A DNA stretch of 64,000 bases, taken from NCBI GenBank assembly GCA_945860295.1, contig CAMAQH010000011.1, positions 1-64,000 of the forward strand, given 5' to 3'. The notes below the pieces were generated by a model. It did no database searches, was not told where the DNA came from, and saw only the letters and a program-made list of their open reading frames with translations. The position numbers and the translations under genes were made by a program. The DNA is from Prosthecobacter debontii. GTDB lineage: Bacteria; Verrucomicrobiota; Verrucomicrobiia; Verrucomicrobiales; Verrucomicrobiaceae. This document shows positions 4,430-61,964 of this stretch, piece by piece (positions within the stretch are counted from its first letter, which is position 1; every line of letters starts with the position of its first letter).

Positions 4430-4431
4430 GT

Positions 4432-4461: not shown

Positions 4462-4473
4462 CTCAAACTCCCC

Positions 4474-4501: not shown

Positions 4502-4517
4502 GTTTTAACCTCGACTC

Positions 4518-4797
4518 ATGCCCAGACGATAACTTCGCCACCCACATCAGGTCACTGACTGGCTCCATGAGTGGGGAGCCAAGTTGCAGGAACACGCCTC
4601 GATGATTCTCATTGGCTCTGCGGGACTGCTTTGGCACGCGGCCGGGATCGGCCGAGATGATCCTTTGCCAGAGAACAGCATGGATGTGGGCCCTGTGACG
4701 GACAGTGATGCCGTGGCTTAGCTGGCTTACGACGCATTGATCGGCTGCGAGTTTCAGGCCGTCGTCGCCACCACTTCATGGACGAAATGTGTTTCAT
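4518..4797 (+). pseudogene. Degraded nucleotidyltransferase-like gene relic
   Basis: One frame starting at ATG 4518 reads as protein across two in-frame stops: MPRR, stop, then WLHEWGAKLQEHASMILIGS, continuing through LLWHAAGIGRDDPLPENSMD to a second stop, then LAYDALIGCEFQAV before it breaks down. The hydrophobic ILIGSAGLL followed by LPENSMDV.PVTD resembles small nucleotidyltransferase-fold proteins (DUF6036-like) common in this phylum. That assignment is from memory of the family and is moderate at best. The stops and the missing C-terminal half show it is inactive. It fills the gap between the tkt terminator and ppk2. Confidence 0.5.
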
Positions 4798-4841
4798 GAA
4801 TGGCTGCCATCCTGCACGATGCGAGGCATTCTTTATCTCTC

Positions 4842-24796: not shown

Positions 24797-28875
<4,079 letters not shown>

Positions 28876-45372: not shown

Positions 45373-46806
45373 TCAACCAACGATCTCCTTGATCACATGC
45401 CCGTGCACGTCGGTTAGCCGGCGATTGATGCCGTTGTTGTAGAAGCTGAGTTTCTCGTGATCGAGTCCGAGCAAGTGCAGCGCGGTGGCGTGGAGATCGT
45501 AGCAGTAGGCGGGATTCTCGGCGGCTTTATAACCGAGGTCGTCAGTGCTGCCGTAGGCGGTGCCACCTTTGATGCCGCCGCCAGCCATCCAGGCGGTGAA
45601 GGCACCTGGGTTGTGGTCACGTCCTTTGCCTGCGCCTTGCGCTGCGGGTTGACGACCGAACTCGCTGGTGCAAATGACGAGCGTGCTGTCGAGCAGGCCG
45701 CGTGATTTGAGATCGGTGAGCAGCGCGGCAGCACCAGTGTCGAGAATGGGGCCCCAGTAGCCGTGGTCGCGCACGAGGTCTTCGTGGCTGTCCCAGTTCG
45801 GGCGGATTTTTTTCGCGCCGGTGTTTTCCGCACCACAGAAGATCTGCACAAAACGCACTCCACGCTCGACGAGTCGGCGGGCGAGCAGGCATTGGCGGCC
45901 AAAGGTGCCGATGTCTTCGTGATCGAGATTGTAGAGCTGCTTGGTGGCGTCGGATTCGCCACGCAGATTGGTAGCGTCAGGGGCGCTGAGTTGGAGGCGG
46001 GCGGCGAGTTCGTAGGCGGCGATGCGGGCCTCGAGTTCGCTGTTGCCCGTGCGCTCGGCGGCATGGGCGTGGTTCAGCGTTTGGAGAAAATCGCGGCTGG
46101 TCTGCTCGGTCTGGCCGCGGAGATGGGCGAAGTTTTTCGACGGGAATAGATCAGCGATGGGCGGCTTCTCGACATCAGTTTGCAGCGTGGTTCCCTGATG
46201 AATCGCAGGCAGAAAACCCGCGCCCCAATTGATGACACCGCCGGGCGGAAGCCCGCGCGGATCGGGCAGCACGGCGAAGGCAGGCAGGTCATCGCTCACA
46301 CTGCCGAGTCCATAGGTGACCCACGCGCCCATGCTGGGAAAGCCAGGCAGGATGAAGCCGCTGTTCGCCATAAACATCGCTGGTCCGTGCAGCGCGGTTT
46401 TGCTCTGCATGGAGTGAATGAAGGCCATGTCGTCCACGCGTTGCGCGAGCTTGGGAAAGAGGTCGCTGATCCAGCGTCCACACTCGCCATGTTGGTGGAA
46501 GGGCCACCAGCTCTGCTGACAATTGCCCGGCTTCGAGGCGAAGAACTGCAGCTTGCCATCGGCATCAAAGGGTTTTCCCTGACGCTTCACCAGCTCCGGT
46601 TTGTAGTCCCAGGTATCGACATGTGAAAGACCACCTGGGCAGAAAATTTGGATCACTGCCTTGGCCTTGGCGGGATGATGCGAGCTCTTGGGCGCGAGCG
46701 GATTCGTTGCTGCGCTGGCATCGCGATGCAGCAGAGAAGCGAGGGCGGTTCCTGTGAAGCTGTGTAGGAAGTTGCGACGTGAGGAGCTGGAAAGGAGAGT
46801 ATTCAT
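45373..46806 (-). CDS. DUF1501 (sulfatase-superfamily-like) exported protein
   Basis: 477 aa. The N-terminus SSSRRNFLHSFTGTALASLL is a twin-arginine-type signal. Typical DUF1501 landmarks: VIQIFCPGGLSHVDTWDYKP, DDMAFIHSMQSKTALHGPAM, ERGVRFVQIFCGAEN, NWDSHEDLVRDHGY, VICTSEFGRQP, GRDHNPGAFTAWMAGGGIKG and TALHLLGLDHEKL. These place Asp/His metal ligands as in alkaline-phosphatase-like folds. DUF1501 genes are usually paired with a PSD1 cytochrome gene; this one is not, but two PSD1 genes lie upstream in the same block. Confidence 0.88.
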   Translation of the reverse strand: MNTLLSSSSRRNFLHSFTGTALASLLHRDASAATNPLAPKSSHHPAKAKAVIQIFCPGGLSHVDTWDYKPELVKRQGKPFDADGKLQFFASKPGNCQQSWWPFHQHGECGRWISDLFPKLAQRVDDMAFIHSMQSKTALHGPAMFMANSGFILPGFPSMGAWVTYGLGSVSDDLPAFAVLPDPRGLPPGGVINWGAGFLPAIHQGTTLQTDVEKPPIADLFPSKNFAHLRGQTEQTSRDFLQTLNHAHAAERTGNSELEARIAAYELAARLQLSAPDATNLRGESDATKQLYNLDHEDIGTFGRQCLLARRLVERGVRFVQIFCGAENTGAKKIRPNWDSHEDLVRDHGYWGPILDTGAAALLTDLKSRGLLDSTLVICTSEFGRQPAAQGAGKGRDHNPGAFTAWMAGGGIKGGTAYGSTDDLGYKAAENPAYCYDLHATALHLLGLDHEKLSFYNNGINRRLTDVHGHVIKEIVG

Positions 46807-46824: not shown

Positions 46825-49143
46825 TTAATGAATCCAGATGGCTTTGCCCGTGCCGCCTTTTGGTGTGGTCATCGGGTAGTTGGTGTTGGGCTTTTGCTCG
46901 ATGATGCGGACGACTTGCTCGATGGCCAGATCGGTCTGGGCATCACGAAACCGAACGCCGGTGACGCTGACATTGCGCACGGTGCAGTCGAGGTCGGGAG
47001 AGAAGATTTCGGTCCATTTCTCTGGCTTGTTCTGACCTCCGCTCTTGTAGGTCACAGACTTCGGCCCGATAGCGAGGAGGTGCCATTCAGGAGTGATGTG
47101 ATGATTCACGCGAACGTTGTGAATGGAGAGTCCGGCGGTGTTCGCGTGGAGTTCGATCTGACCGGGTTGGTTGAAGGTGAGGTCTTCGAGGCGGAGGTTC
47201 TTCACGGTGCCAACTCCGATGCTGAAGTCGTTGTCACGACCGAGTTCGAGGTTCGGCTGGTCATAGAGCTTGAACTCACGAATGTCCGTGATGCGGCGCA
47301 GCGTGATGTCGCTGATGGGGCAATCGAGCGTGGTGCCATCATCAAAACGCTTCACGCCGGGCAGGATGCGGATGGAATTGGCCGCAGGCACACCTTTGGG
47401 CGCTCCGGTGACGTCTTCGATGACGATGCGTTTGATGGGGCCATAGCTGGGCGCGTAGTTTTTCCATTCCCAAGCATTCAGCGCGACATTGTCGTCATGC
47501 GAATCGCCACGCACGCCGCGGATGAGGCCATCACTGGCGGGGCCGTTCACATGCACGCCGTCGCGGCGGTGGTCTTCGAGGGTGATGTTTTCCACGGTGA
47601 ACTCATGCGCGTTCGCCAGATGCACACCGAAGGGCCTGCTCTGCCGAATGGTGACGTTCTTCACCGAGACGCGGCGGACGTTTTGCAGCAGGATGACGCC
47701 GTGCGTGCCGAAGGCGAGATTCTCCTTTGCGGAATGGCCGCGGTTGTTGCCATTGCTGGCCACGGCGGTGGCGAGTGTGCTCCAAATACCGCCTTCGACG
47801 GTGATGTCCGTATCGAGCGGCAGATCGGCGGGCACGGGCTTGGTGTTCAAGGTGACGACATGCTCGTTGCGCACCATGCAGGTGTTAGAGTCAGGCTTGA
47901 GGCGAATCTCGGCGGTCGGATCGGCGCTGAGTTTTTGACCGGATTTCAAGACGAGCGGGCCATCGAGGTAGTAGGGCTGGTCTCGTGCGGGAATGTGCAG
48001 CGTTCCCTGGGCGTCGAGCGTCGCTTGCATGGCCTGCGTCCACACTTCGGCGGTGACGTTGCGCGTTTCGACTTTTCCGGAAGCGTCCGGCCACTGCTCG
48101 GTCCAGGTTTCGCTGCGGACGAGTGGCTGGAAATCGGACAGTTTCTTGGCGGCCGGTATTGGCAGATTGTCCGACGCCTTGAGATAGCCCAGCGACACGA
48201 AGAAGGCGTCCAGCTCGCGAATGATGCGGTGGAAGCATCGAGTGACTTCCTCGCGTGGTTCGCCCTTGCCGCGCCCGGGATTAAAAAAGCCGTGCGGCTG
48301 GCCTTCGTAGGCTTTCAGTTCGCAGCGATTGCCTGCGGCAGTCATGGCTTTGGCAAAGAGTTCCACCGTGGGGAATGGCACCGCCTCATCTTTCGTGCCG
48401 TGGAAGAGAATGCTCGGAGGCAATCCCGCACGGACGAAATGATAGGGAGATATCTCCTGCGGTCGCCCATCGGTGCGGGCGCGGATATCGGCGATTTTTT
48501 CATCTGAAAGCAGCCCGGGATGACCTTCCACCGGCGAGAGCACCACGGCTGGATTAAACAACGCGAGAGCGTTCGGCATGGAGCTGACCTCCGTGTGATC
48601 TCCGTCCTCGAAACCCGGCACCATCGCCACCGCCGCAGCGAGATGACCGCCAGCGGATTCACCTCCCGCCACGATGCGGTCGGGGTCAATGCCGAGACGC
48701 CCGGCATTGGCACGAGCCCAACGAATCGCTGCCTTCGCATCGCGCAGGCAATCCTGCGGGATGACCCCGTGGCGGCTCAGCACCCGGTAGTCACACGGAA
48801 TGGCGACCATGCCGCGCTGCGAGAGGTAAAGCGATTGCGGCAGGAATTGTCCCGGCGATCCACCTTTCCATCCGCCACCAAAGAAGAACAACACCGCCGG
48901 GCGTCGCTCTGAGGCTCGATGATTCGGCGGTGTGAAGATGTAAGCATTGAGCTTCACACCGTTCACCTCCCGATAAACCTCCACGCTCGCCCCTGGCATC
49001 TCCGGCGGGTATTTCCAACTCACAGGCGGCTCAGGAAGATCATTAGCGGCGTGCAGCGCGACCAGCGGCTCTAGGAGCAGGAGGGTGGTCAGCAGGAGAC
49101 GACAAAAAGATGCGTGGCAGAAAAATGGGCTCCGGGTCTTCAT
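46825..49143 (-). CDS. Secreted alpha/beta-hydrolase (BD-FAE-like esterase) fused to a right-handed beta-helix
   Basis: 772 aa from ATG 49143 with signal peptide ending at LHAA. Residues about 45-330 are an esterase: oxyanion HGGG-type loop as FFFGGGW (87-93), nucleophile Ser163 in GGESAGG, acid in GTKDEAVPF and His in EGQPHGF near 295. Residues about 400-760 form a parallel beta-helix of pectate-lyase type with repeating NVTIRQSRPFGVHLANAHEF and ENITLEDHRRDGVHV. An esterase of this type removes acetyl, feruloyl or similar groups, and the helix would bind or cleave a uronic-acid polymer. The order esterase then beta-helix in one chain is unusual. Confidence 0.82.
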   Translation of the reverse strand: MKTRSPFFCHASFCRLLLTTLLLLEPLVALHAANDLPEPPVSWKYPPEMPGASVEVYREVNGVKLNAYIFTPPNHRASERRPAVLFFFGGGWKGGSPGQFLPQSLYLSQRGMVAIPCDYRVLSRHGVIPQDCLRDAKAAIRWARANAGRLGIDPDRIVAGGESAGGHLAAAVAMVPGFEDGDHTEVSSMPNALALFNPAVVLSPVEGHPGLLSDEKIADIRARTDGRPQEISPYHFVRAGLPPSILFHGTKDEAVPFPTVELFAKAMTAAGNRCELKAYEGQPHGFFNPGRGKGEPREEVTRCFHRIIRELDAFFVSLGYLKASDNLPIPAAKKLSDFQPLVRSETWTEQWPDASGKVETRNVTAEVWTQAMQATLDAQGTLHIPARDQPYYLDGPLVLKSGQKLSADPTAEIRLKPDSNTCMVRNEHVVTLNTKPVPADLPLDTDITVEGGIWSTLATAVASNGNNRGHSAKENLAFGTHGVILLQNVRRVSVKNVTIRQSRPFGVHLANAHEFTVENITLEDHRRDGVHVNGPASDGLIRGVRGDSHDDNVALNAWEWKNYAPSYGPIKRIVIEDVTGAPKGVPAANSIRILPGVKRFDDGTTLDCPISDITLRRITDIREFKLYDQPNLELGRDNDFSIGVGTVKNLRLEDLTFNQPGQIELHANTAGLSIHNVRVNHHITPEWHLLAIGPKSVTYKSGGQNKPEKWTEIFSPDLDCTVRNVSVTGVRFRDAQTDLAIEQVVRIIEQKPNTNYPMTTPKGGTGKAIWIH

Positions 49144-49209
49144 ATTTTTGCCGGACATTACTTTGTCGGTCTTATGAGAGTGAATGGCGAGGTGTTTCAT
49201 CAAAGGTGG

Positions 49210-50493
49210 TCACTTCATCGTCTTCGCTATCGCATCCACCTCGCTCATCTTGAAGCGAACGCTGACGATGGAGCAGCCGATGTCTTCTTTCCGGTAGTTC
49301 GCATAGGTCGTGGCGACGATGGTGCCGCCGGGGAGCAAGTGCAGGCCGGGGTAGAAGCCGTCTTTGAAGGTCTTCAAAAGACTCACACGATACTGACCTG
49401 GTTTGCCTTGTTTGATGTCATCGTAAGTGCCGACCCAGGCAATGAACCCGGCTTTGTCTTTCGACTGCGGCGAGGCGTTGCGAAAGACGATGACCATGCG
49501 CCCGTCGGGCAAAGAGATGCCGTGGTGTCGGTCGCCGGTGAGTCCCCACGGCGTGTCCATGGGTTGAGACCATGTCTTGCCTTCGTCGCGGCTGAACATG
49601 ACGAGGCTCGTGCCGCTGCGGCGGTTCTCTCGCATCAGGCAGCAGAGTTCGTCGCCATCGGGCGAGCGGAAGACGTAGGGCTCGCAGGGGTGCTTGCCGT
49701 CGAGTTTGGTGCCGTCGCAGGCGATTGTGGGCGCGGACCAGGTGAAGCCGCCGTCGCGGGTGATGGATTGTAGCACTTGCAGCGTGCCTTCCTCGCCGAT
49801 GCCGCTGCCGCGATGGAAGAGGCCGAGCGTTGAGCCGTCCTTCAGCCGCACGATGCTGGAGAATGTCATGATGCAGCGAAAGGGATCGTCCTTGCTGATC
49901 GGTCCGCCGATGGGCGGTAGCTCGCGCCAGGTCTTGCCATCGTCCTCGCTGACGATGCGCGGCATGAAGCCCTCGTGACGGCCTGCGATGAGCTTGGGGT
50001 TCTCCTTGTCGGTCAAGGTGCGTGCGGCAAAAACCCACAGCCGCTCTTTGCCCTGCGGATCGGTGATTCGATAGATGCTCGGGCAGTTCTTGAAGTTGAC
50101 GTAGTTCGGCGGCAGCGCGTCGTCGATGCGCTTCCAGGTCAGCCCCGCGTCCTCGCTGCGAGCCATCGGCCCCGCGTGGCCGCCGTGGCCGAGGTTCCAG
50201 ACGCAGAAGATCGTCTTGTTGTCCGCCAGCATCGCCGTGGTCGGATGCGCGTGATACTCGCCCGGCTTCGGCGAACCGCGTGCGATGACGATTTGCCGCT
50301 GTGTGTCCTCGGAGAGGTCGATGTGCTTCAACGCCTCACGGTGCTGCTGCCACAGCGCCTTCTTTTCAGCAGGCGCGGATTCCCATGCACGTTTCGCGGC
50401 CTTGGTGGCGTTCGCGACCTCGGGCTTCGCTTGGGCGAATGCGGCCAGCGGCGCAAGCAGCAGGGCGGTGAGGAAGGTGAGGTTGTGTTTCAT
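49210..50493 (-). CDS. Secreted sialidase-like BNR protein
   Basis: 427 aa from ATG 50493; upstream codons to 50682 overlap the neighbouring gene and are not used. Signal peptide MKHNLTFLTALLLAPLAAFA, cleavage near AQA. A helical insert of about 45 residues precedes the propeller. Asp boxes SEDAGLTW, SEDDGKTW, TRDGGFTW and SRDEGKTW mark the blades. No (F/Y)RIP motif is seen, so it is a divergent member of the sialidase clan and sialic acid need not be its substrate. Confidence 0.8.
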   Translation of the reverse strand: MKHNLTFLTALLLAPLAAFAQAKPEVANATKAAKRAWESAPAEKKALWQQHREALKHIDLSEDTQRQIVIARGSPKPGEYHAHPTTAMLADNKTIFCVWNLGHGGHAGPMARSEDAGLTWKRIDDALPPNYVNFKNCPSIYRITDPQGKERLWVFAARTLTDKENPKLIAGRHEGFMPRIVSEDDGKTWRELPPIGGPISKDDPFRCIMTFSSIVRLKDGSTLGLFHRGSGIGEEGTLQVLQSITRDGGFTWSAPTIACDGTKLDGKHPCEPYVFRSPDGDELCCLMRENRRSGTSLVMFSRDEGKTWSQPMDTPWGLTGDRHHGISLPDGRMVIVFRNASPQSKDKAGFIAWVGTYDDIKQGKPGQYRVSLLKTFKDGFYPGLHLLPGGTIVATTYANYRKEDIGCSIVSVRFKMSEVDAIAKTMK

Positions 50494-50507: not shown

Positions 50508-52682
50508 TCACTTCTTCGGCGCAGGTGCTGGGGCTTTGACCCACGCGAGGTTGAATGCGTAGTGGTTCCGGCTGGTGACGAGCTCGATATTTCCAGCACG
50601 GCTCTGTGTGGCCGCAAGGTAGCTGGTGGGTTCGGCGAGGGTGTCGCTGATGAGGAAGGGCGTTCGTTCCTTGGTGATCCACTTCCGCTCCGGTCCACCG
50701 GGTGTGATGAGTCGTCGGTCAGGCCAGGTCTTGCCTTCGTCGTAGCTGACGGCGGCGAAGAGGCCGTAGCCTGTGTAGTCGCCGCCGGTGGATTTGAAGA
50801 CGAGGCCCTTGCGATTCCGCCAGTCCCGCCATTGGTCAGTGAAGGAGCAGAACACCAGTGGACCTTCTTTGAGTCGCAGCAGGACGCTCTTTTGAGCGCT
50901 GCTCACGACGGGGAACTCGCTCATGCCCCACTGCCATGTTTTGCCGCGATCACTCGAATAGCTCACGGGCGTCCGGTTCTCGAAACGAGCCTGCTCTTGC
51001 ACGGGGTCAAGCCGTGAAAAGGCCATCCAGCGCCCGTCGGCGAGTTCCACCATGGCGGGATGGTAGCCGGCGATGAATGATCCGCTGTTGCCGGGCCTGA
51101 CGTCATCGCTGCCACGAATCCTGCGACCGTGCTGCTGCCAGCTCTTGCCACCGTCCTCGCTGACCATGACTTCAAAGAGGTCATACGGGATCGCCAGGAC
51201 GCCGTCTTTGGTGCGCATCAACTGGTTGGCGTAGTCTCCGGCGGCACGGAAGAACTCCGGCTTCGACCAAGTGGCTCCGTTGTCAGTGGAGTGACGCAGG
51301 CTCTGACACCCGGACTTATAATACACGTCGTCGAGGTGATAGAGAGTCTTGTCTCCGTCCCACCAGAGCTGCGGCGCTCCGTCCAGCACATCGGCCGCAT
51401 CATAGAAGGGCGACGCGGGTTCCCATTCCTTCGCACCGAAGCGCAGTCGTGACGCTGCGTGCGAGCAGGTGAGGTCCGTTTCGGCGGGAGTCGAAACCCA
51501 TGCCGCGAGCAAATCACCATTCGGGCATTCGGTGATCGTCATGCAATGATTCTCACTGCAATACACCGGCCCGACTGCATCATCCGCGACATGCACCAGT
51601 AGCTTCGGTCCTTCGAAGAACGGCTCATTGGCGGGCTGCGGCACGATGCGCGGCACAGTCTGGCTAACGTTTTGCGCATTCAGCGGTGGCGGTGCTTTGG
51701 GTAGCAAGGTTCCTTTTGGAAGCTCACCCTGCACGACGCGAAACCCCATGCGATCAAACGCATCGTATGGCACCCGTGAACCCCGATTCGCCGAGCGCAG
51801 GAAGCGGATGAGCGAGGAATGAAATCCACCCCGGAACACGCGGAAGTCGCCATCCACACGCCCGAGCGGGTCTGTCTGCGCAACGCCTTCATACACCCCA
51901 TACCAGTCGCTGCACCACTCGGCCAGGTTGCCGTGCATGTCGTGCAGGCCCCAGGCATTCGGCGTCTTCTGTGCCACGCGCAATGAACCCGCCGCATCAT
52001 GTCTGGCGTTTTCATGAGTCCATGAACCGCCGACGAGTTCACCATACTTCAAACCGGCCATCGCTTTTTCTCCCGCCTTCCGCCAATCATACTCCTGTGG
52101 CATCGGCCCGGACGGAAAATAGGCAACGCGAAGATTCTCATCCCCAAACCACTTCTGGTGAGCATCCGGTAGCTTTTCGCCCGTGTTGAAAAGCGTCGTC
52201 GTGCCCCCGCGGCACGCATACTCCCACTCCGCCTCCGTCGGCAGGCGATACGTTTTGCCTTCCTTCTTCGAGAGCCACTCGCAGAACTCGACCGCCTTGT
52301 GCCATGAGATGCCGCTGGCCGCATCTTCATCCGCAGGCTTCGACTTCGCATCGCGCATTTTGAAACCGGGATCAAATTGCCAATACTGCGCCACCGTCAC
52401 TTCGGTGACACCCATCAGGAACGGCTGCGTGATCGTGACCCGGTGCGCCGGCTTCTCATCGAAGTCGATTCGATTGAAGTCCTTATACATCTCCCCGAGC
52501 CGCTTCTGCCCCATATAATCCTCCAGCGGCGGACCGTCCTGACCCATGGTGAACGTGCCAGCTTCAATGCGCACAAGCTTCATGCCGATGGAGTTGATGA
52601 TGGGCTCGGCGCGTTGGCCGACGGAATGCACCGAAGAAACGGAAACGATGAGAGGGATGAGGAAAAGGGGGATGGGTTTCAT
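50508..52682 (-). CDS. SUMF1/FGE-like domain fused to a sialidase-like propeller (copy 1)
   Basis: 724 aa from ATG 52682; the frame is open to 53438 but that part lies inside the next gene. Signal peptide, then a SUMF1-type domain at about 28-320 (MKLVRIEAGTFTMGQDG, YRLPTEAEWEYACRGG, NAWGLHDMHGNLAEWCSDWY, FRVFRGGFHSS). The active-site cysteine pair of true formylglycine-generating enzymes, which follows GGSW, is absent: GGFHSSLIRFLRSANRG contains none. Residues about 370-710 are a BNR propeller (STDNGATW, SEDGGKSW, SSDRGKTW, SYDEGKTW). It therefore probably binds rather than modifies. It is a tandem paralogue of the next gene upstream, 11 bp apart. Confidence 0.82.
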   Translation of the reverse strand: MKPIPLFLIPLIVSVSSVHSVGQRAEPIINSIGMKLVRIEAGTFTMGQDGPPLEDYMGQKRLGEMYKDFNRIDFDEKPAHRVTITQPFLMGVTEVTVAQYWQFDPGFKMRDAKSKPADEDAASGISWHKAVEFCEWLSKKEGKTYRLPTEAEWEYACRGGTTTLFNTGEKLPDAHQKWFGDENLRVAYFPSGPMPQEYDWRKAGEKAMAGLKYGELVGGSWTHENARHDAAGSLRVAQKTPNAWGLHDMHGNLAEWCSDWYGVYEGVAQTDPLGRVDGDFRVFRGGFHSSLIRFLRSANRGSRVPYDAFDRMGFRVVQGELPKGTLLPKAPPPLNAQNVSQTVPRIVPQPANEPFFEGPKLLVHVADDAVGPVYCSENHCMTITECPNGDLLAAWVSTPAETDLTCSHAASRLRFGAKEWEPASPFYDAADVLDGAPQLWWDGDKTLYHLDDVYYKSGCQSLRHSTDNGATWSKPEFFRAAGDYANQLMRTKDGVLAIPYDLFEVMVSEDGGKSWQQHGRRIRGSDDVRPGNSGSFIAGYHPAMVELADGRWMAFSRLDPVQEQARFENRTPVSYSSDRGKTWQWGMSEFPVVSSAQKSVLLRLKEGPLVFCSFTDQWRDWRNRKGLVFKSTGGDYTGYGLFAAVSYDEGKTWPDRRLITPGGPERKWITKERTPFLISDTLAEPTSYLAATQSRAGNIELVTSRNHYAFNLAWVKAPAPAPKK

Positions 52683-52693
52683 GACTTGGTGAT

Positions 52694-54724
52694 TCACTTC
52701 TTCGGCGCGGACGGCAGTTGTTTGATCCACGCGAGATTGAACGTGTAGTGCTTGCTGCTGGTGACTAGCTGGATGCGGCTGTCGCGCGTCTGCGTGATGG
52801 CAAGGTAGCCGTTGGTGTTCGCAGGGGAGCCGTTGGCGTTGGTGAGGCGTTCTTCGGGGCCGATGATGAGGCGGCGGTCGGGCCAGGTTTGGCCTTCGTC
52901 GTAGCTGACGGCGGCGAAGAGGCCCACGCCGGTGAATTCGCCATCGGTGCTCTTGAAGGTCATGCCTTTGCCGCCGAGACCTTTCTTCAGATCGCGGGCT
53001 TGGTCGGTGAAGGAGCAGAGCACGATGGGGCCTTCTTTGAGCCGCAGGAGCACGGGGCGCTGCGTGTTGCTCACGACGGGGAACTCGCTGGGGGCATAGC
53101 TCCAGGTCTCGCCCAAGTCGCTGGAGTAACTGACGGGCATCTTGAAGCCGAAGATCTCTTGGTCTGCCACGTCGTCGAAGCGACCCATCGCCATGAGGCG
53201 TCCGTCGGCGAGTTGCACGAGCGGCGCATGGATGCCGGCGATGCATGGGCCGTTGCCGCCGGGGCGCACGTCGATTTTGTTGCTGCGCCAGGCTCCGTTT
53301 TGTTTCCACGTCTGGCCGTTGTCGCGACTGATGACGATGGAATGATTGTCGATCGCGATGGCGAGCACGCCCTCGCGGGTGCGAATGAGGTTGTTGCTGG
53401 TCTCGCCTGCTGGGATGAAGACCTTGGCCTTGCTCCACGTCGCGCCGTTGTCCGTGGAGGTGCGGAAGAGCACGTCGGCAAAGGCGCGTGATTCAGCGAA
53501 GTGGATGATGGTTTTGTCGCCGTCCCACCGGAGCTTCGGCGCGTGGTCGTTCACATCGGGTGCGTCCCAGAAAGGCGAGGGCGTTTCCCAATCCTTCGCG
53601 CCAAAACGAAGGCGGTTCGCGCCGTTGGCGAGTTCGGGTCCGGGTTCGCTGACGCAGGTGAACCAGGTGACAAGCAGATCGCCGTTCGGACACTCAGTGA
53701 AACCGGGGCTGTGATTGTGCCGGGTAAAAAGCGGACCGACTTCCCCAGGCGGAATCTGGCGGTAATTTCGCGGTCCTTCCATGAAGGGCATGTCATTGGC
53801 CGGCGGTGTGATGTTAGGCACTTGCTGGCTGACGTTCTGCGCGATCATCGGCGGTGTCGGTGGCGGCAGTGTCATGCCTTTCAGCCACTCGCCCATGACG
53901 ACGCGGAAACCGACCCAAGGGCTCGCGGAATCGGGAATCCAGCCTCCACGATTCGCTGAGCGAACCATGCGCGTGAGCATCGAGTGACTGCCACCGCGGA
54001 ACACGCGGAAATCGCCGTCACTGCGGCCCAGTGGGTCGGTTTGGTCACGGCTCTCATAAGGTCCATACCAGTCGGTGCACCACTCGGCCACGTTGCCATG
54101 CATGTCATGCAGGCCCCACGCATTTGGAACCTTCTGCGCAACGCGAAGCGAGGTCGCGCCCTCCTGCCACGCATACTCGGGCGGCATTTTGCCATCGGGG
54201 AAATACAGCTCACGCCAGCCTTGGCGGCCAAACCACTTCTGATGCCCTGTCGGCAACGTGTCGCCCGTGTGGAAAAGCGTCGTCGTGCCCGCACGACAAG
54301 CATACTCCCACTCCGCTTCCGTCGGCAGATGATAGGTCTTACCTTCCTTCTTCGAGAGCCACTCGCAGAATGCCGCTGCCTTCGTCCAAGTGATGGCATT
54401 CACAGCTTCATCGTCCGTGCCTTTGCCCTTGCGAAAGCCTGGCTCGAACTGCCGGAACTGCCCCAGCGTGACCTCGGTGACGCTCATGTGAAACGGTTGC
54501 GTGAGCGTCACGCGATGCACCGGCTTCTCATCCCAATCCGCCGACCGAACCTCCGCGTGATGCGTCGCCATGTTCCCATTGCCCGCAATCGGCTGCCCGT
54601 CCTGGCCCATCGTGAACGTGCCTGACTGGATGGGCATGAGTTTCATGCCAATGGAGTTCGTGATGGGCTCGGCTGCGTGCATGGGAGTGAACAGCAGGGC
54701 GACGAGGAGGGTGAGTCTTGTCAT
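52694..54724 (-). CDS. SUMF1/FGE-like domain fused to a sialidase-like propeller (copy 2)
   Basis: 676 aa from ATG 54724. Same architecture as the downstream copy: signal peptide MTRLTLLVALLFTPMHAA, SUMF1 domain at about 20-280 (YHLPTEAEWEYACRAGTTTL, NAWGLHDMHGNVAEWCTDWY, RVFRGGSHSM at 242-249) without the FGE cysteine pair, then a propeller with STDNGATW, SRDNGQTW, SSDLGETW and SYDEGQTW. C-termini are nearly the same (FNLAWIKQLPSAPKK here, FNLAWVKAPAPAPKK in the other). It follows the PSD1 gene by one base, implying translational coupling. Confidence 0.82.
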   Translation of the reverse strand: MTRLTLLVALLFTPMHAAEPITNSIGMKLMPIQSGTFTMGQDGQPIAGNGNMATHHAEVRSADWDEKPVHRVTLTQPFHMSVTEVTLGQFRQFEPGFRKGKGTDDEAVNAITWTKAAAFCEWLSKKEGKTYHLPTEAEWEYACRAGTTTLFHTGDTLPTGHQKWFGRQGWRELYFPDGKMPPEYAWQEGATSLRVAQKVPNAWGLHDMHGNVAEWCTDWYGPYESRDQTDPLGRSDGDFRVFRGGSHSMLTRMVRSANRGGWIPDSASPWVGFRVVMGEWLKGMTLPPPTPPMIAQNVSQQVPNITPPANDMPFMEGPRNYRQIPPGEVGPLFTRHNHSPGFTECPNGDLLVTWFTCVSEPGPELANGANRLRFGAKDWETPSPFWDAPDVNDHAPKLRWDGDKTIIHFAESRAFADVLFRTSTDNGATWSKAKVFIPAGETSNNLIRTREGVLAIAIDNHSIVISRDNGQTWKQNGAWRSNKIDVRPGGNGPCIAGIHAPLVQLADGRLMAMGRFDDVADQEIFGFKMPVSYSSDLGETWSYAPSEFPVVSNTQRPVLLRLKEGPIVLCSFTDQARDLKKGLGGKGMTFKSTDGEFTGVGLFAAVSYDEGQTWPDRRLIIGPEERLTNANGSPANTNGYLAITQTRDSRIQLVTSSKHYTFNLAWIKQLPSAPKK

Positions 54725-54725
54725 T

Positions 54726-57698
54726 TCAGTCGAGGTAAAGGAACTCGTTCGCATTGATGAGCATCCGGCACAGCGCGAAGAGACCTTGCTCGGTGACGAG
54801 GGGCGTGGCGGCTTGCAGTTCGGCGGCGGTGGCATCGCGCTGGAAGGTGAGGGCGAAGGCGCGGCGGATGGCGGCTTCGCGGGAATCGGTTTCGTTTTCG
54901 ATGCGGGTGACGAGATGCTGCGCCTGCTGGAGCATGAAGTCGTTGTTGCTGAGCGTGAGCGCCTGCAAAGCGGTGGTCGTGTTCACACGGGCGGGCGTGA
55001 GATTGGCCGGGTCAGGACAATCAAGTGTGGACAGGAACTGGTGTGGCGTGGTGCGCACGATGAAGCGGTAGATGCTGCGCCGCCATAGCTCAGGCTTGTC
55101 CGGTGTGAGGTAGTCGTAGATAGGCGCGTAGGCTTCGGTGTATTTGAAGTCGCGATAGCCAGGACCGCCCATCTCGAGATTGAGCGTGCCGCTGACAGCC
55201 AATACAGCGTCGTGCAATGACTCGGCATCAAGACGGCGCGGGTTTTGGTGGGAGAGGAGGCGGTTGGCGGAATCCAGGAGCGATGGAGTATTGGCGGGCC
55301 GGAGTGATTCATTTCCAATAATTCCGTTCTCCTTCACTCCATCACTCCGCTGCTGATAAGCTACGCTCATCATGATGAGCTTATGCATGTGCTTCACCGA
55401 CCAGCCGCTTTTCAAAAACTCATCCGCAAGCCAGTCGAGCAATTCGGGATGCGAGGGTTTGTCGCCGCCGAGACCGAAGTCGCTTGGCGTGGTGACAAGT
55501 CCCTGGCCGAAGTGATGATGCCAGAGCCGATTCACCAGCACGCGGCGCGTGAGCGGATTGTCGGGATGTGTAATCCACTCGGCAAGAGCACGGCGGCGCT
55601 GACCTTCCGGCGTGGCCTTGTCGCCAAGAGTGACGGGCGCATGTTTTGCCCAAGCGAAAGCGGTAGGCACGACTTCTGCGCCTTCATCTTCGGGATTGCC
55701 GCGTCGCTGCACCTTGATGACGGGCGGTTTTTCCTCCGAGACAACGGCATACACTTTGGCAGGCTCAGGCAGAGCTTTGAGGTCGCCTTCGATCTTCTGC
55801 ACCTCAGCACGGAGTCTCTTCAATTCAATTGTAGCGGCCTCGGTGAGGCGGCTTTCGGCGACTTCGGGCACGAGCTTTGGATCGCCGATGAAGAGGAGAT
55901 CGTTGCCGATGCCATCGCTGCCGTCGGTGGCGATGAGAGTGAGCGTCTTCGCCGACGCGGGCAATTCGATGTCGAGCACGGCTGTCTCGTCTTTACGCAA
56001 CTTGAGCTTTTGGAACTTCAACTCGGTATCGACGAAGACCGTGATGTCAGCGCGGCTCGCGGCGGCTTCTTTGGACGCTCCAAAGCCAACGTGACCGCTG
56101 AGTCGCATGGCGGCGTGGCCGCTTAGCTCACGCAGCTTCACGAGGTCAAAGGTGATGCCGCTGTTCGCGTGCATGGCGAGCATGGTGTGGCCTTTAGCGG
56201 CGAAGTCGGTGTCACCCAGCTTTGTGCTGCGCTGCGCATTCAGCGGGCGGTTCGCGATGGTGTCCCAAAAGTGGCCACTGGTGGCGGGAACACCCTTCAC
56301 TTCTTGTTTGGCGTCCACGGTGACGGTTCCTTTGCCATCGGCCACGAAGACCCACTTCACGCCTGGCACGTTCTCCACCTTTTGCAGACGGTTCGTCATC
56401 AGGTCGCGATGGTAGCCGAGCGTGTCCTTCGTGACAGAGCCGTTGCGCAGGTCGATACCGGAATCCTTCGGAATGAGTGTGGCGAGTTCAAGACCTTCCC
56501 CCGCGAGCTTAGCGATCTGTGCTCGTATTTGCGTGAGCCTTTTGCCAAGGCGATCTTTCTCAGTAGCAAGTCGCTTGGATTCCACCGCGCTGACTTCGCG
56601 CTCGCCCCGCTTCACGCCCGCAAAGACCGACCACATGCTGTAATACTCCTGCTGCGTGATGGGATCCAGTTTATGGTCGTGACAACGTGCGCAATTGATC
56701 GTGATGCCTATTGTGGAGGTGATGACCTGCGTGACCATGTCATCGAGATCGCCTGCGCGAGCTGCGCGCTTGAGCATGTCGCTCTTCGTCTCCACTTGAC
56801 CCACAAAATCCCAAGGACCCGCCGCCAGAAAGCCGGTGGCGATGACCGCCTTTTGGTCGTCGGCACGAATGATGTCGCCTGCAATCTGCTCGCGCAAAAA
56901 CTCATGGTAAGGCTTGTCCGCATTCAGCGACTCAATGACGTAGTCACGATAACGCCACGCATTCGGCCGAAGCTGATCGCGCTCAAAGCCATGCGTGTCC
57001 GCATAGTGTGCGATGTCCAGCCAGTGCCGCGCCCAGCGCTCGCCGTAGCGCGGTGACTTTAGCAACTCATCCACCAGTTTCTCGTAAGCCTGCGGGGCCG
57101 TGTCGTGGACAAACTGCTCCACTCGCTCCGGTGATGGCGGCAATCCAGTGAGATCAAATGAGAGCCGCCGGATGAGTGTGCGACGGTCTGCTTCGGGTGA
57201 CATTGATAGACCCTTGGCACTGAGTGAGGCCTTGATGAAGCTGTCGATGGAGAGCTGTTCAGTCTTCAACCCGAGAGTTTCGGCTAAAGCCGAAGCCACT
57301 TTCACCGGCTGCACCGACCAATGCTGCAGCCGCTTGTCCACAGCAGCCTCGTGGTCCGCATCATTTTCTGGCCACACCGCACCGCTTTCGATCCACGCCT
57401 TCACCGTCGCGACTTGCTCTTCGGAAAGCCGCTCACCTTTGGGCGGCATGCGCTCGTCATCGTCCGTGGAAATGATTCGCTGAAACAGCGGACTCTTCGC
57501 CACAACACCGGCCATCAGCACCGGTCCATCATGACCGCCCTTCAGCGCATATGGCTTCGCATCAAGGCGCAACTCGCCCTTCTGCTTTTTAGCGCCGTGG
57601 CACTCGATGCAGTGCTCCCGCAGTAGAGGGCGGATCTCACGGTCAAAATCAACGGCTAGAGCAGAAGTAGTGAGGAGTACAAAAAAGGCAGTTTTCAT
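54726..57698 (-). CDS. PSD1 and planctomycete cytochrome c domain protein (DUF1549/DUF1553), copy 1
   Basis: 990 aa, exported (MKTAFFVLLTTSALA). The planctomycete cytochrome domain has C30-I-E-C33-H34. DUF1549 (PSCyt2) spans about 150-360 with RRLSFDLTGLPPSPERVEQF and a second CxxCH-type element INCARCHDHKLDPI. A middle beta-rich insertion at about 450-580 resembles a lectin-like sandwich. DUF1553 (PSD1) covers about 690-980 with NPLTRRVLVNRLWHHHFGQG and SDFGLGGDKPSHPELLDWLA. Function is unknown; such proteins pair with DUF1501 and are thought to take part in redox or polysaccharide processing at the cell surface. Confidence 0.88.
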   Translation of the reverse strand: MKTAFFVLLTTSALAVDFDREIRPLLREHCIECHGAKKQKGELRLDAKPYALKGGHDGPVLMAGVVAKSPLFQRIISTDDDERMPPKGERLSEEQVATVKAWIESGAVWPENDADHEAAVDKRLQHWSVQPVKVASALAETLGLKTEQLSIDSFIKASLSAKGLSMSPEADRRTLIRRLSFDLTGLPPSPERVEQFVHDTAPQAYEKLVDELLKSPRYGERWARHWLDIAHYADTHGFERDQLRPNAWRYRDYVIESLNADKPYHEFLREQIAGDIIRADDQKAVIATGFLAAGPWDFVGQVETKSDMLKRAARAGDLDDMVTQVITSTIGITINCARCHDHKLDPITQQEYYSMWSVFAGVKRGEREVSAVESKRLATEKDRLGKRLTQIRAQIAKLAGEGLELATLIPKDSGIDLRNGSVTKDTLGYHRDLMTNRLQKVENVPGVKWVFVADGKGTVTVDAKQEVKGVPATSGHFWDTIANRPLNAQRSTKLGDTDFAAKGHTMLAMHANSGITFDLVKLRELSGHAAMRLSGHVGFGASKEAAASRADITVFVDTELKFQKLKLRKDETAVLDIELPASAKTLTLIATDGSDGIGNDLLFIGDPKLVPEVAESRLTEAATIELKRLRAEVQKIEGDLKALPEPAKVYAVVSEEKPPVIKVQRRGNPEDEGAEVVPTAFAWAKHAPVTLGDKATPEGQRRRALAEWITHPDNPLTRRVLVNRLWHHHFGQGLVTTPSDFGLGGDKPSHPELLDWLADEFLKSGWSVKHMHKLIMMSVAYQQRSDGVKENGIIGNESLRPANTPSLLDSANRLLSHQNPRRLDAESLHDAVLAVSGTLNLEMGGPGYRDFKYTEAYAPIYDYLTPDKPELWRRSIYRFIVRTTPHQFLSTLDCPDPANLTPARVNTTTALQALTLSNNDFMLQQAQHLVTRIENETDSREAAIRRAFALTFQRDATAAELQAATPLVTEQGLFALCRMLINANEFLYLD

Positions 57699-57704
57699 CG
57701 CGGT

Positions 57705-60569
57705 CTATTCGATATAAAGCAGTTCGTTGGCATTCAGGAGGGCGCGGCAGAAGGCTTCGGGGCCGTGGGCGGTGATGAGTTGGGTGGCGGCTTGATGTTC
57801 TTTGGCGGTGGGGTCGCGCTGAAAGGCGAGGTGATAGGCTCGGGTTATGGGGTCGCTGGATTGAATGCGGGCGGAGAGGAACTTCGCCATGTCGAGAGTG
57901 AAGCTGTGGTTGAGCAGTGTGAGGGCTTGCAGCGGCGTGGTCGTATTGGCGCGCTTCGGCGCGGCGAAGGCGATGTCTGGGAGGTCAAAGTCATTGAGGA
58001 CATCGACGACACTGGCGCGGGCGTTTTGATGATAGACGGTGCGGCGGTAGGTCTCGGGGCCGTGGACATCGAGCGGGAAGTAGGTGCAGACGTTGTTCTG
58101 TGTGAACTTGTAGAGGCGGAAGCCTGGGCCGCCTATGGGTTCGAGTTTCATTTGGCCTGCGACGGTGAGCATGGTGTCGCGCAGTTCCTCGGCGCTGAGG
58201 CGGCGTGGCGGGAATCGCCAGAGCAGGCGGGCGGATTTATCGGTCTTTAAGCCTTTGGTTAGGCTAGATGGGACCGATGGGATGGAGGATGCTTGCTGAT
58301 AGGTTTTTGAGAGCAGTATCTCGCGGTGGAGGGCTTTGATTTTCCAGCCGTTGGCGACGAGCCGAGCGGCAAGGTAGTCGAGGAGTTCGGGATGCGTGGG
58401 CTTGCTGCCGAGGAAGCCGAAGTCGCTGGGAGTATCAACGATGCCAGTGCCGAAGTGATGCTGCCAGACACGATTGGCGAGCACTCGGGCGGTGAGTGAG
58501 TTGTCGTTGCTGGTGATCCATTGGGCCAAAGCCAAGCGGCGCTGGCCTTCATCGGTATCAGGCTTGAGCTTATAGGGCTTGGTGACTTGATCGAGCACGG
58601 CGAGACTGGCAGGGACAACGAGATCGCCAGGCTTCATGGGGTCGCCACCTTTGTGGACGGTGGTGGGCTCAGGGGGTTGCTTGTGCGTGCCGACCCACAT
58701 TTGCGGCAAGGCTGGCACGGCATTGATTTTTGCCTGCGTTTTCGCGATGTCGCGATTCAAAGCAGTGAGGCGAGTTTGCTCATCGGCGGTGGTGACGCTG
58801 CGGCGGGCGTGCTCGATGCCGTGGGCCGGCGTCCAGGGCTCGCGGCCTTCGCTAGTGGCGACGGTTTTCCATGTGGTTCCATCTAGACTGACTTGAACTT
58901 CATACTCGGTGGGTGTGGCACCGCGTACCTTGCTTTCATCGGTATCGCGATCACCGCGTGCATTGATGAAGGTGATGCGCTGAATAGTTTCAGGCTTAGC
59001 CAAGGTGAGCTTGAGTTCGGGTGGGTTGCCGATGAACCAAGCCTCGCCGCGTTGGCCGTCGATGCAGTATTGCGGTCCATAGGCTTCAGGGAAGTCCTCG
59101 GCGGTGGCGGACTTGGCTCCTTCGGCTTGGGTGCCATTGCTGGCGAGGGCGACATTGCGATTGTCGCTGCTCCAGACCTGGAACTCGGTGAGCTTGCCAC
59201 CGCCGATCTTTGCAAGCTTGCCTTGGTAATCGTTGGTGAAGCTTTGGATGACGAACTTGATGTATTTGGCTTTGATGGGTGGAAAGGTTTCGTCGGTGCC
59301 GAATTGGTCGATTTTAGGCCGCTGGAACTGCATCTTCGCAAAGGCTGCTTTGGCGCGGGTTTCGATGTCGGCATCGATTTTATCACGCTCGGTTTGCTGG
59401 CGCTTCAACTGGGCGTTGAGCGGTTTCAATGCTGCGGTATGCGCGCTGCGTTGCTCTGGTGTGGTGACGACTCGCCGGCCATGCGTGACACCTTCAAAGG
59501 CGGCACGGAGTCGGTAGTAATCCTCGGTGGGGATAGGATCAAACTTGTGATCGTGGCAGCGGGCGCAGTTGATAGTTAGGCCGAGAAAGGCTCCGCAGGT
59601 GGCGGTGATCATGTCGTCGATGGTTGCTGCGCGGATGTTTTTCTGCGCGACGACATCGCCATTTCCCACATCATCATAAGGCCCAGCGACGAGGAAGGCG
59701 CTGCCGACTTCGATCTCGGGTTTGTCTTTGCCGATGACATCACCCGCGAGGTGCTCGGCGATAAACTGATTGAAGGGTTTGTCGTCGTTGATGGATTTAA
59801 TGACGTAGTCGCGAAAGGGATAGAGGTCGTCGATGACGAAGTTTCTCTCAAAGCCATTGGACTCCCCAAAGCGGACGACGTCCAGCCAATGACGGCCCCA
59901 GCGTTCTCCGTAGCGGGGTGAGGCGAGGAGTCGGTCGATGAGGTCCTTATTAGCTCGTGTGTTGGTTTGGCGGTCCTTCACGAAAGTTTCAACCTCCTCC
60001 GGTGATGGCGGGAGACCATGCAAATCATAAGTCACTCGACGAATGAAGGTGCGTGGGTCAGTGGGCGGACTGAAATCGAGGCCTTTTTCTTTGAGCTTGG
60101 TGGCGATGAAGTCGTCGATACTGCCTGCGGTCTTGAGGTCAGTTTTATTGCGTTGGAGGGACCACCAGGATTTGTCGCCGCGCTTCGCTTCGATCTTCAC
60201 GCCATCACGGGGATCGGGTGCTCCCATTTTGATCCATGTGACGAGATCGGCGATGACCGCATCTGGCAACTTGGGTTTCTTTGGCGGCATCTCCATGTCG
60301 GCTTCGAGATGCTGCACGGTGCGGATGAGCAGGCTGGCTTCCGGCTTGCCAGGGACGATGATCGGATCGCCACTGTCGCCGCCTTTTTCCCAGCCTGCTT
60401 TGGAGTCGAGGTAGAGATTGCCTTTGAGCTTCTTCGCCTCGGCGCTGTGACAGGAATAACAGTGCTCCACCAACACAGGCCGCACCTTTTGTTCAAAGAA
60501 AGCGATGCCAGATGGATCGGCAGCTAGGACGGTGGAGGAGAGGAGGAGAGTGAGAGCGAGGGCTTTCAT
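57705..60569 (-). CDS. PSD1 and planctomycete cytochrome c domain protein (DUF1549/DUF1553), copy 2
   Basis: 954 aa, exported. Heme motif C37-Y-S-C40-H41, then KLKGNLYLDSKAGWEKGG. DUF1549 has RRVTYDLHGLPPSPEEVETF and INCARCHDHKFDPI. The insertion at about 440-560 is a discoidin/F5-F8 type C-like domain (KYIKFVIQSFTND, PPELKLTLAKPETIQRITF), unlike copy 1. DUF1553 follows (NSLTARVLANRVWQHHFGTG, SDFGFLGSKPTHPELLDYLA). It is sandwiched between DUF1501 (3-bp gap) and copy 1 (6-bp gap). Two stacked copies with different binding inserts suggest different ligands on one scaffold. Confidence 0.88.
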   Translation of the reverse strand: MKALALTLLLSSTVLAADPSGIAFFEQKVRPVLVEHCYSCHSAEAKKLKGNLYLDSKAGWEKGGDSGDPIIVPGKPEASLLIRTVQHLEADMEMPPKKPKLPDAVIADLVTWIKMGAPDPRDGVKIEAKRGDKSWWSLQRNKTDLKTAGSIDDFIATKLKEKGLDFSPPTDPRTFIRRVTYDLHGLPPSPEEVETFVKDRQTNTRANKDLIDRLLASPRYGERWGRHWLDVVRFGESNGFERNFVIDDLYPFRDYVIKSINDDKPFNQFIAEHLAGDVIGKDKPEIEVGSAFLVAGPYDDVGNGDVVAQKNIRAATIDDMITATCGAFLGLTINCARCHDHKFDPIPTEDYYRLRAAFEGVTHGRRVVTTPEQRSAHTAALKPLNAQLKRQQTERDKIDADIETRAKAAFAKMQFQRPKIDQFGTDETFPPIKAKYIKFVIQSFTNDYQGKLAKIGGGKLTEFQVWSSDNRNVALASNGTQAEGAKSATAEDFPEAYGPQYCIDGQRGEAWFIGNPPELKLTLAKPETIQRITFINARGDRDTDESKVRGATPTEYEVQVSLDGTTWKTVATSEGREPWTPAHGIEHARRSVTTADEQTRLTALNRDIAKTQAKINAVPALPQMWVGTHKQPPEPTTVHKGGDPMKPGDLVVPASLAVLDQVTKPYKLKPDTDEGQRRLALAQWITSNDNSLTARVLANRVWQHHFGTGIVDTPSDFGFLGSKPTHPELLDYLAARLVANGWKIKALHREILLSKTYQQASSIPSVPSSLTKGLKTDKSARLLWRFPPRRLSAEELRDTMLTVAGQMKLEPIGGPGFRLYKFTQNNVCTYFPLDVHGPETYRRTVYHQNARASVVDVLNDFDLPDIAFAAPKRANTTTPLQALTLLNHSFTLDMAKFLSARIQSSDPITRAYHLAFQRDPTAKEHQAATQLITAHGPEAFCRALLNANELLYIE

Positions 60570-60572
60570 GGC

Positions 60573-61964
60573 TCAAGCGAGAATGTTCTGAATCACATGT
60601 CCATGCACATCCGTGAGGCGGCGGTTGGCGCCGTTGTGGTAGTAGGTGAGCTTTTCGTGATTGAGCCCGAGGAGATGAAGGACGGTGGCGTAGAAATCAT
60701 AGACCGTGGCAATATCGACGGCAGCGCGGCGGCCAAAGTCGTCTGTCTCACCATAGCTCACGCCGCCTTTCACACCCGCGCCCATCATCCAAGTGGTGAA
60801 GGCGTCGGGGTTGTGATCGCGGCCGCTGGTGCCGTCTTGATGTGTGGGCATGCGGCCAAACTCGGTGCACCAGATGATGAGCACGTCGTTTAACATGCCT
60901 CGCTGTTTCATATCGGTGAGCAGTGCTGCAGTGGGTTGATCAAAGATGGGGCAATGGCGCTCGTAGTCAGCCTTCAGCGTTTTATGCGCGTCCCAATTGA
61001 GCAGGCCATCGACGGCGCTAGCGCGTGAAGCGCAGTAAAGGCTGACATAGCGCACGCCTTGTTCTAGGAAGCGGCGGGCGAGTAGGCAATTTTTGGCATA
61101 CGCGGCCTTGAGTTTGTTGCTGTCGTTGGTGCCGTAGAGGTCTTGGATGTGTTGGGGTTCACGCGAGAGGTCGCTGACTTCAGGCGCGGTCAGTTGCATC
61201 TTGGCGGCGAGTTCATAGGCGGCCATCCGAGCGCGGAGTTCGTCATTTTCAGCGTGAGCGGCGGCGTGCTCAGTATTGATGAGCTTTAAAAAATCACGCG
61301 TGGCTTTCTCAGTACCCACGGAGATCGAGGCGGGCCGAGCGAGATTGCGCAGTGGCTGCTGGGCAGCCATGGAGATGCCTTGATACTCGGCAGAGAGGAA
61401 GCCGTTGCTCCAATTGGCTTTGCCATTCGGTGGTTCACCGCGCAGGTCCTGAATGGAGATGTAGGTGGGCAATTTATCATTCAGACTGCCGAGACCGTAA
61501 CTGACCCACGAGCCTGCGCTCGGGAAGCCATCACGGGTGAAGCAGGAGTTCATATTCACACAGCCCGGACCATGCGTGTTGGTGCGACTGGTCATGCTGT
61601 GAATGAAGGCCATGTCATCGGCATGACGCGCCAAGTGCGGCAGCATGGAGGTCATCATTTTGCCAGACTGACCCGCTGGCAGAAAGTCCCAGGGCGGCCG
61701 CATCAAATTGCCGTTCTTACCCTGGAATGTGACCTCGGCCGCGCCAGGAAGTGGCGTGCCATGATACTTCTCCAGCATCGGTTTGTGATCCCAGAGATCG
61801 ACATGCGATGCTGCGCCTGGACAGAAGATTTGCAGCACTTGTTTAGCCTTCGGTGCAAAGTGCGGCTGATGCTTCGGGGCATCCGCCATGAGGCGAGAAA
61901 GAGCCACACCCGTGAGTCCGGTGGACATCTGACTGAGAAATTGGCGACGTTGGAGAAGGTTCAT
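60573..61964 (-). CDS. DUF1501 exported protein paired with PSD1
   Basis: 463 aa. Twin-arginine-type N-terminus LLQRRQFLSQMSTGLTGVAL. Core motifs: VLQIFCPGAASHVDLWDHKP, DDMAFIHSMTSRTNTHGPGC, GVRYVSLYCASRAS, NWDAHKTLKADYERHC, IIWCTEFGRMP, GRDHNPDAFTTWMMGAGVKG and ATVLHLLGLNHEKLTYYHNG. It overlaps the regulator stop by 4 bp (ATGA), so regulator and structural genes are on one message. It forms the classical DUF1501-PSD1 pair with the next gene. Confidence 0.9.
   Translation of the reverse strand: MNLLQRRQFLSQMSTGLTGVALSRLMADAPKHQPHFAPKAKQVLQIFCPGAASHVDLWDHKPMLEKYHGTPLPGAAEVTFQGKNGNLMRPPWDFLPAGQSGKMMTSMLPHLARHADDMAFIHSMTSRTNTHGPGCVNMNSCFTRDGFPSAGSWVSYGLGSLNDKLPTYISIQDLRGEPPNGKANWSNGFLSAEYQGISMAAQQPLRNLARPASISVGTEKATRDFLKLINTEHAAAHAENDELRARMAAYELAAKMQLTAPEVSDLSREPQHIQDLYGTNDSNKLKAAYAKNCLLARRFLEQGVRYVSLYCASRASAVDGLLNWDAHKTLKADYERHCPIFDQPTAALLTDMKQRGMLNDVLIIWCTEFGRMPTHQDGTSGRDHNPDAFTTWMMGAGVKGGVSYGETDDFGRRAAVDIATVYDFYATVLHLLGLNHEKLTYYHNGANRRLTDVHGHVIQNILA

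Follow-up and report, generated by a model that had tools for sequence, protein, structure and literature searches.

A conserved family of SUMF1–propeller fusion proteins with an altered sialidase-type pocket in Prosthecobacter and its relatives

Two adjacent genes of Prosthecobacter debontii encode proteins in which a domain with the fold of the formylglycine-generating enzyme (FGE) is joined to a sialidase-like propeller. They belong to a conserved family of fusions with an altered sialidase-type pocket, assembled from known parts. The window analysed here is a stretch of 64,000 nucleotides (assembly GCA_945860295.1, contig CAMAQH010000011.1, positions 1 to 64,000). Automatic annotation is expected to label such genes "formylglycine-generating enzyme" and "sialidase"; judged by their residues, the two proteins are probably neither. 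With moderate confidence, sequence comparison and structural modelling suggest a glycosidase propeller of altered specificity linked to a pseudo-FGE binding or docking module, serving a glycan-use operon.

Gene B (52694..54724, minus strand; open reading frame, choice of start and Pfam) encodes 676 amino acids and gene A (50508..52682, minus strand; open reading frame and Pfam) encodes 724. The ATG of B at 54724 and the end of the A stop codon at 50508 coincide exactly with the limits given in the preliminary description, and its motifs were equally exact. The start of A was taken at the ATG at 52682, a listed longer open reading frame starting at 53438 being set aside as it overlaps B. B consists of a hydrophobic N-terminus, a SUMF1/FGE-like domain, a proline-rich linker containing AQNVSQ and a six-bladed BNR/sialidase-like propeller, and A has the same layout. 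Judged by eye, the hydrophobic N-termini of both proteins look like signal peptides. The PF03781 (FGE-sulfatase) domain occupies 53897..54634 in B (138 bits, E 1.5e-40; also matched to human FGE by Foldseek) and 51732..52577 in A (123 bits, E 1.6e-37), and the PF13088 (BNR_2) match lies at 52781..53683 in B (E 1.4e-9), where the first propeller strands begin just upstream of the match, and at 50589..51518 in A (E 1.2e-10), all on the minus strand. These Pfam matches are above their cut-offs and the predicted folds agree with them, so the earlier claim that each protein joins a complete SUMF1/FGE-type fold to a BNR propeller holds. In both genes the two halves share one frame with no stop between them. 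A and B share 54% identity across 703 alignment columns.

In the SUMF1 half of both proteins the cysteine loop of FGE is replaced by RGGxH(S/T). According to the alignments, the loop is RGGSHSMLTRMVRSANR in B (residues 243-259; 53948..53998, minus strand) and, by sequence and alignment, RGGFHSSLIRFLRSANR in A (51783..51833, minus strand). It contains GGFHSSLIR in A and GGSHSMLTR in B versus GGSYLCHDSYC in solved FGE; the solved structure 6muj has RGGSYLCHDSYCNRYRVAARSS at this place, and the loops of A and B are about three residues shorter and free of Cys. The FGE fold is thus present while the active-site Cys pair that follows the GGS motif is absent. Each SUMF1 domain, in A and B alike, still has three cysteines. 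Those of B were aligned with human FGE: C120 and C143 align with "AYC" and "EYSC", C216 aligns with the Thr of "EWT", and none falls within the GGS loop. No Cys occurs in the stretch corresponding to B residues 243-262 in any of the 55 family members; 11 of 32 members have a Cys four residues ahead of RGG, A and B not being among them. His247 (B) is kept in 54 of 55 members, and Arg243, Arg255 and Arg259 in 32/32 rows. The best Foldseek match of the B model is human FGE (1y1g, E 1.3e-15, TM 0.69 by target), with PvdO and TvpA also listed, and profile searches with the SUMF1 halves returned FGE, PvdO (E 3e-28), PorK (E 2.2e-27), TvpA (E 9.5e-25) and SUMF2. Foldseek, the profiles and the missing cysteines agree with the earlier reading of this half as an FGE-type C-type-lectin fold without FGE chemistry: as modelled, it is a domain that has kept the fold and lost the chemistry. 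It may bind a glycan, and by analogy protein docking has equal precedent. In PMC12421860, PorK is presented as an FGE fold put to new use, lacking both cysteines and acting as a docking hub, and PMC5006420 presents the FGE-type fold as a ligand-binding scaffold in DGR proteins.

The loss of cysteines, on which the interest in these genes was originally founded, turned out to be ordinary. A Cys pair at FGE spacing is missing from all 13 PF03781 matches in the source genome; one of them (L006) has two cysteines after the GGS motif, nine residues apart instead of five. Among the domains of relatives, a non-random sample made up of the best 29 of a much longer list, four have C-x4-C at the loop (L093, L094, L095 and L114), each of them belonging to another family within the order. 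Nor did any of the 45 viral FGE-like domains long enough to include the loop have the pair; this set was drawn from 79 loci, of which 27 apparent repeats were not entered and 5 were removed as alike, and two of the 47 left end before the loop. As the absence of these cysteines is common in PF03781 domains of these bacteria and of viral contigs, it does not mark out A and B and was rejected as a special feature. Diversification of the DGR type was likewise ruled out for A and B: RGGxH and RSANR rank with the most conserved stretches of the family, and hypervariable residues in the C-terminal CLec loop, a DGR trait, are not present; a genuine DGR elsewhere in the source genome was used for contrast. 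Pfam found no reverse transcriptase among the 17 window proteins scanned.

The structure of B was predicted from 55 sequences, with 37 added viral FGE-like domains among the inputs. The model has a mean pLDDT of 77.6 and a pTM of 0.80, with low confidence at residues 158-174, 182-190, 327-335 and 624-635; an earlier model from 20 sequences had a mean pLDDT of 55.4 and values below 50 at residues 143-272. Foldseek and VIA-align recognise in the final model the two folds anticipated in the preliminary description, that of FGE and a sialidase-like propeller, which is six-bladed. Foldseek matched the second half to sialidases, and in VIA-align the propeller scored about equally with 1eur (Z 30.9, 295 residues, 2.5 A) and 7lbu (Z 31.7, 312 residues, 3.0 A). 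The 50 matches listed by VIA-align are all to propellers, so that the FGE fold rests on Foldseek and the profiles. Profile searches with the propellers matched GH181 and GH33 sialidases, with GH181 (8axi, 9eob) best. The Asp-box (PF02012) was detected at E up to 0.01 in 20/20 members, A remaining under its curated cut-off.

In GH33 sialidases an arginine triad, a Tyr/Glu nucleophile pair in which the Glu activates the Tyr, and an acid/base Asp form the catalytic set. These roles match those given in PMC12018670. In GH181, Glu218 positions the catalytic water and Gln350/His349 replace the Tyr (PMC10067855). The pocket was mapped through the window gene 37518-38669, which can be aligned with 1eur over almost its whole length (E 4e-41), and then with hhalign. 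By hhalign, His338 stands at Arg1 of the triad, His499 at the Glu of the Tyr/Glu pair and Arg515 at Arg2. The GH181 alignment, with the numbering offset set by hand, likewise pairs Glu218 with His499 and R234 with R515, and it places R305 (Arg3) at Gly599. The GH33 triad is therefore not present, Arg2 (R515) being its sole remainder. Nor is the Tyr/Glu pair kept: His499 stands for the Glu, and the Tyr was aligned with Tyr640 only by hand, from the motifs YxxxxxxxDG and FNLxW, hhalign having placed the stretch otherwise. The acid/base Asp probably corresponds to Glu360, again by hand alignment. At the region of GH181 His349-Gln350, which the profile alignment left outside, most family rows have GYLA or SYLA.

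The altered pocket is nearly invariant. His338, Glu360, Arg371 and Arg373 occur in 55/55 of the sequences aligned (43 clusters at 90% identity); in non-gap rows His499 is found in 54/54, Arg515 in 53/54, Tyr640 in 53/53 and Gly599 in 50/53. Among the 16 PF13088 rows of the source genome, nine (eight proteins) have Glu at the Glu motif, both fusions have His, and the remaining five comprise two with Pro and three without a clear motif; the Glu is thus not universal in the superfamily. Two GH33-like genes of the window, 37518-38669 and 38703-39908, share the propeller superfamily and the contig with A and B, and they have no SUMF1. The former keeps YRIP, Glu234, Arg250 and Tyr350. The latter has YHIP, with His for Arg1, but keeps the Glu, Arg and Tyr, so that the change of Arg1 to His is not unique when taken alone. 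The second half had been described simply as a hydrolase, a label under which the replacement of most of the GH33 catalytic set goes unseen.

The cross-genome search proposed at the outset revealed the fusion as a conserved family. Within the phylum, the two BNR halves matched in 13/387 genomes, the window's own included, and in 11 of these 13 SUMF1 lay in the same frame; it was not found at the loci of G178 (L073) and G385 (L074, near a contig end). A search of genome_contigs gave 13 loci, 13/13 with SUMF1, one of them split in two ORFs and two cut by contig ends, in a search whose seed patterns lie within the linker and so favour fused members. By title they belong to Prosthecobacter, the nearest with 94% across the BNR half, to Verrucomicrobiaceae, Chthoniobacter and Opitutia MAGs, and in one case to a Planctomycetota MAG. 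In the genus, 36/48 genomes match the propeller profile. Among 30 genus loci (one per genome, window included), SUMF1 lies beside the propeller in all 30 and in frame in 29; in the thirtieth (L220) it is upstream in another frame. The other six matching genomes gave no locus, their matches being weaker or partial (the sole match in G433 had E 4e-21). The searches overlap, and of the 30 genus loci one is the window and five repeat aligned sequences, so these counts are not to be summed. For the alignment, L062, L075 and L079 (repeats of the window genes or of L076/L068) and L073, L074 and L077 (without SUMF1) were dropped at first; among the genus rows, L211, L212, L218, L223, L227 (the window) and L239 were dropped as repeats and L220 as frame-broken, and 23 new rows were kept. 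A second, shorter fused ORF of L224 was left out of the counts. The unfused relative L073 shows the same pocket residues as the fusions, which indicates that the propeller can occur alone and that SUMF1 is an added module.

Tandem copies recur in the family, with three in L083 (one broken) and two each in L085, L086 and L090. Three A-type genes of other genomes are 89-93% identical to A, and between B and a B-type gene the identity is 92%. In a tree printed without support values, A groups with L083_984, L086_4651 and L090_3555, and B with L080 and L081. A recent tandem duplication was ruled out by these separate clades and by the contrast between the mutual identity of A and B and their identities to relatives. 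The two genes had been taken for a tandem duplication that diverged: tandem paralogy stands, a simple recent local duplication does not. Both halves are under purifying selection. In eight pairs of relatives, dN/dS was 0.085-0.17 for SUMF1 and 0.08-0.30 for BNR, with one BNR pair covering 137 codons only, from a broken ORF. Between A and B it was 0.19 for SUMF1 and 0.35 for BNR, rough values since dS exceeds 1.

A and B are surrounded by closely spaced genes of the minus strand. A GntR/FCD regulator (61961..62614) stands first, and a DUF1501 gene (60573..61964) overlaps it by 4 bases. Two genes for PSCyt1-PSCyt2-PSD1 proteins come next, one with an F5/8 type C match (57705..60569) and one, adjoining B upstream, with an NPCBM match (54726..57698). 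The genes upstream of B are 1 to 6 bases apart; 11 bases separate B from A and 14 bases A from gene C (49210..50493), which encodes a BNR_2 protein of 427 amino acids without SUMF1. Further downstream lie a gene with BD-FAE/carbohydrate-esterase-like and beta-helix parts (46825..49203; start codon uncertain, beta-helix and GH28 matches both under cut-off) and a second DUF1501 gene (45373..46806). With gaps of 1-18 bases or overlap throughout, the genes from GntR to the second DUF1501 gene look like one operon. At the 13 genome_contigs loci that hold the fusion, the neighbours include a homologue of gene C in 8, sulfatase-like genes in 7, PSCyt/PSD1 in 4, DUF1501 in 4 and an esterase in 3. On the contig itself, the sulfatase match above cut-off that comes closest to the operon, at 11739-12641, is some 33 kb away, so that the link to sulfatases rests on the relatives; a sulfatase match of 108 bases under cut-off lies at 77371-77478. 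The gene company as a whole (esterase, beta-helix, PSCyt/PSD1, GntR and the sulfatases of relatives) suggests that a complex, probably decorated glycan is used. No viral relatives were found for either gene C or the BNR half. Another propeller fusion of the window, of BNR_2 with a GDSL lipase, is encoded at 27139-28875.

We propose that A and B are probably secreted and act within this putative glycan-use operon. The propeller would most likely be an exo-acting glycosidase descended from a GH33-type fold, with a pocket rebuilt around His338, Glu360, His499, Arg515 and Tyr640, without the arginine triad and with a His where GH33 has the Tyr-activating Glu. Such a pocket makes ordinary sialic acids unlikely as the preferred substrate, and a different sugar end, perhaps sulfated or uronic, may be recognised instead. 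The SUMF1 module, itself fixed, would bind a glycan or dock a partner protein from the same operon and thereby hold the propeller at its substrate; the constant RGGxH (His 54/55) and the absence of the module from L073 suit such a role. In a more specific and tentative version, which is possible but which we would not favour, the propeller founds an unrecognised GH family within the sialidase fold, with a Tyr-His centre instead of Tyr-Glu and without a carboxylate-binding arginine triad, and in Verrucomicrobiota the pseudo-FGE docking module brings it to a sulfated glycan.

Other readings start from the same residues. It seems unlikely that the propeller is catalytically dead and that the whole serves as a glycan-binding or scaffold protein of two modules, with one binding face on SUMF1 and the other on the propeller. 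A lectin-like pseudo-enzyme is conceivable with two arginines of the triad (Arg1 and Arg3) and the Glu of the nucleophile pair all replaced, and PorK provides a described case of an FGE fold turned into a pure docking hub (PMC12421860). However, the replacing residues are invariant (His338 55/55, His499 54/54), alongside Glu360, Tyr640 and Arg515 (53/54), and the unfused relative carries the same ones, where drift would be expected of a dead pocket. A rebuilt pocket that hardly varies favours a functional enzyme of different sugar specificity over decay. That the propeller is simply a GH33-like or GH181-like exo-sialidase of the ordinary kind, able to cope with the substitutions, is quite improbable. 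By profile, its nearest solved relatives are indeed sialidases of these two families, and GH181 is active despite a replaced Tyr and one replaced Arg of the set (PMC10067855), but GH181 keeps two arginines and Glu218, whereas here His499, Gly599 (for Arg305) and His338 (for Arg1) occupy these places.

For the SUMF1 half, a second enzymatic activity of PvdO, EgtB or FGE-like oxidation type, on a substrate from the same locus, has very little probability in our estimate. Its appeal lies in the NCBIfam PvdO scores (80 bits for B, 76 bits for A) and in the constant Arg243, Arg255 and Arg259 (32/32) and His247 (54/55). The PvdO cut-off is 500 bits, though, and the structural protein GldK gives 84 bits for B against a cut-off of 350. 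EgtB-type enzymes have a DinB domain bearing the iron ligands; Pfam finds no DinB domain in A or B, and the FGE Cys pair is missing.

The family can be compared with several known systems. FGE (human 1y1g, S. coelicolor 2q17, 6muj) shares the fold and domain length of the SUMF1 half and differs in its Cys pair, in the loop that is shortened to RGGxH(S/T) in A and B, and in the propeller fused to them. The secretion-ring lipoprotein PorK/GldK, the pyoverdine-maturation protein PvdO and the DGR variable protein TvpA, all matched by profile, are FGE-type folds with other uses. None of them is known to carry a propeller. PorK, as described in PMC12421860, likewise lacks the catalytic cysteines. 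GH33 (1eur) has in common with A and B the six-bladed propeller, the Asp-box repeats, Arg2 and, by hand alignment, the Tyr, while in A and B Arg1 has become His, Arg3 Gly, the Glu of the pair His and the acid/base Asp probably Glu. GH181 of Akkermansia (8axi, 9eob) comes from the same phylum and has R234 where R515 is kept; its Gln350/His349 and Glu218 contrast with the GYLA motif, Tyr640 and His499, and its C-terminal CBM-like domain has no counterpart in A and B, in which the propeller ends the protein. In a limited literature searched for the domain architecture, no paper on a SUMF1-sialidase fusion was found by title and start of abstract. The A/B family would give the repurposed FGE folds a further setting, probably one of glycan degradation. 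With an altered pocket that is nearly invariant and a family common in the genus, screening substrates could assign a function to the whole locus type, which also holds other uncharacterised PVC genes (PSCyt/PSD1, DUF1501).

Sulfatase maturation in these bacteria presents a separate puzzle. The source genome has 75 PF00884 matches, with a Cys-type motif in 25 of the 30 loci read, some of them overlapping. None of its 13 PF03781 matches has the FGE-spaced Cys pair and TIGR03942 (anSME) gave no match. Among 39 genus genomes, TIGR03942 is above cut-off in two, with some match, nearly always weak, in 27; a canonical FGE query at 1e-25 matched three of the 39, all three without the Cys pair. A missed gene (the genome is 95% complete, and the FGE matches read were the stronger ones) or another maturation route may explain this. 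A and B were rejected as the missing sulfatase maturase, as they have no Cys pair and their propeller half occurs in only 13/387 genomes of the phylum.

Other SUMF1 genes of the source genome show different arrangements. A DGR lies within positions 1-9000 of contig C46 (locus L210), with a variable repeat at 3415-3556, a template repeat at 3711-3852 and the reverse transcriptase at 4429-5430. The variable repeat is part of a caspase (Peptidase_C14)-SUMF1 protein, the RVT_1 gene follows, and the repeats differ at 23 positions, every one of them a template adenine (18 A to G, 5 A to T). Cytochrome-like CxxCH motifs precede the SUMF1 domain in a gene of contig C10 (81114-81863; L004), and on contig C16 (L009, L011) two SUMF1 domains lie in one frame of one protein.
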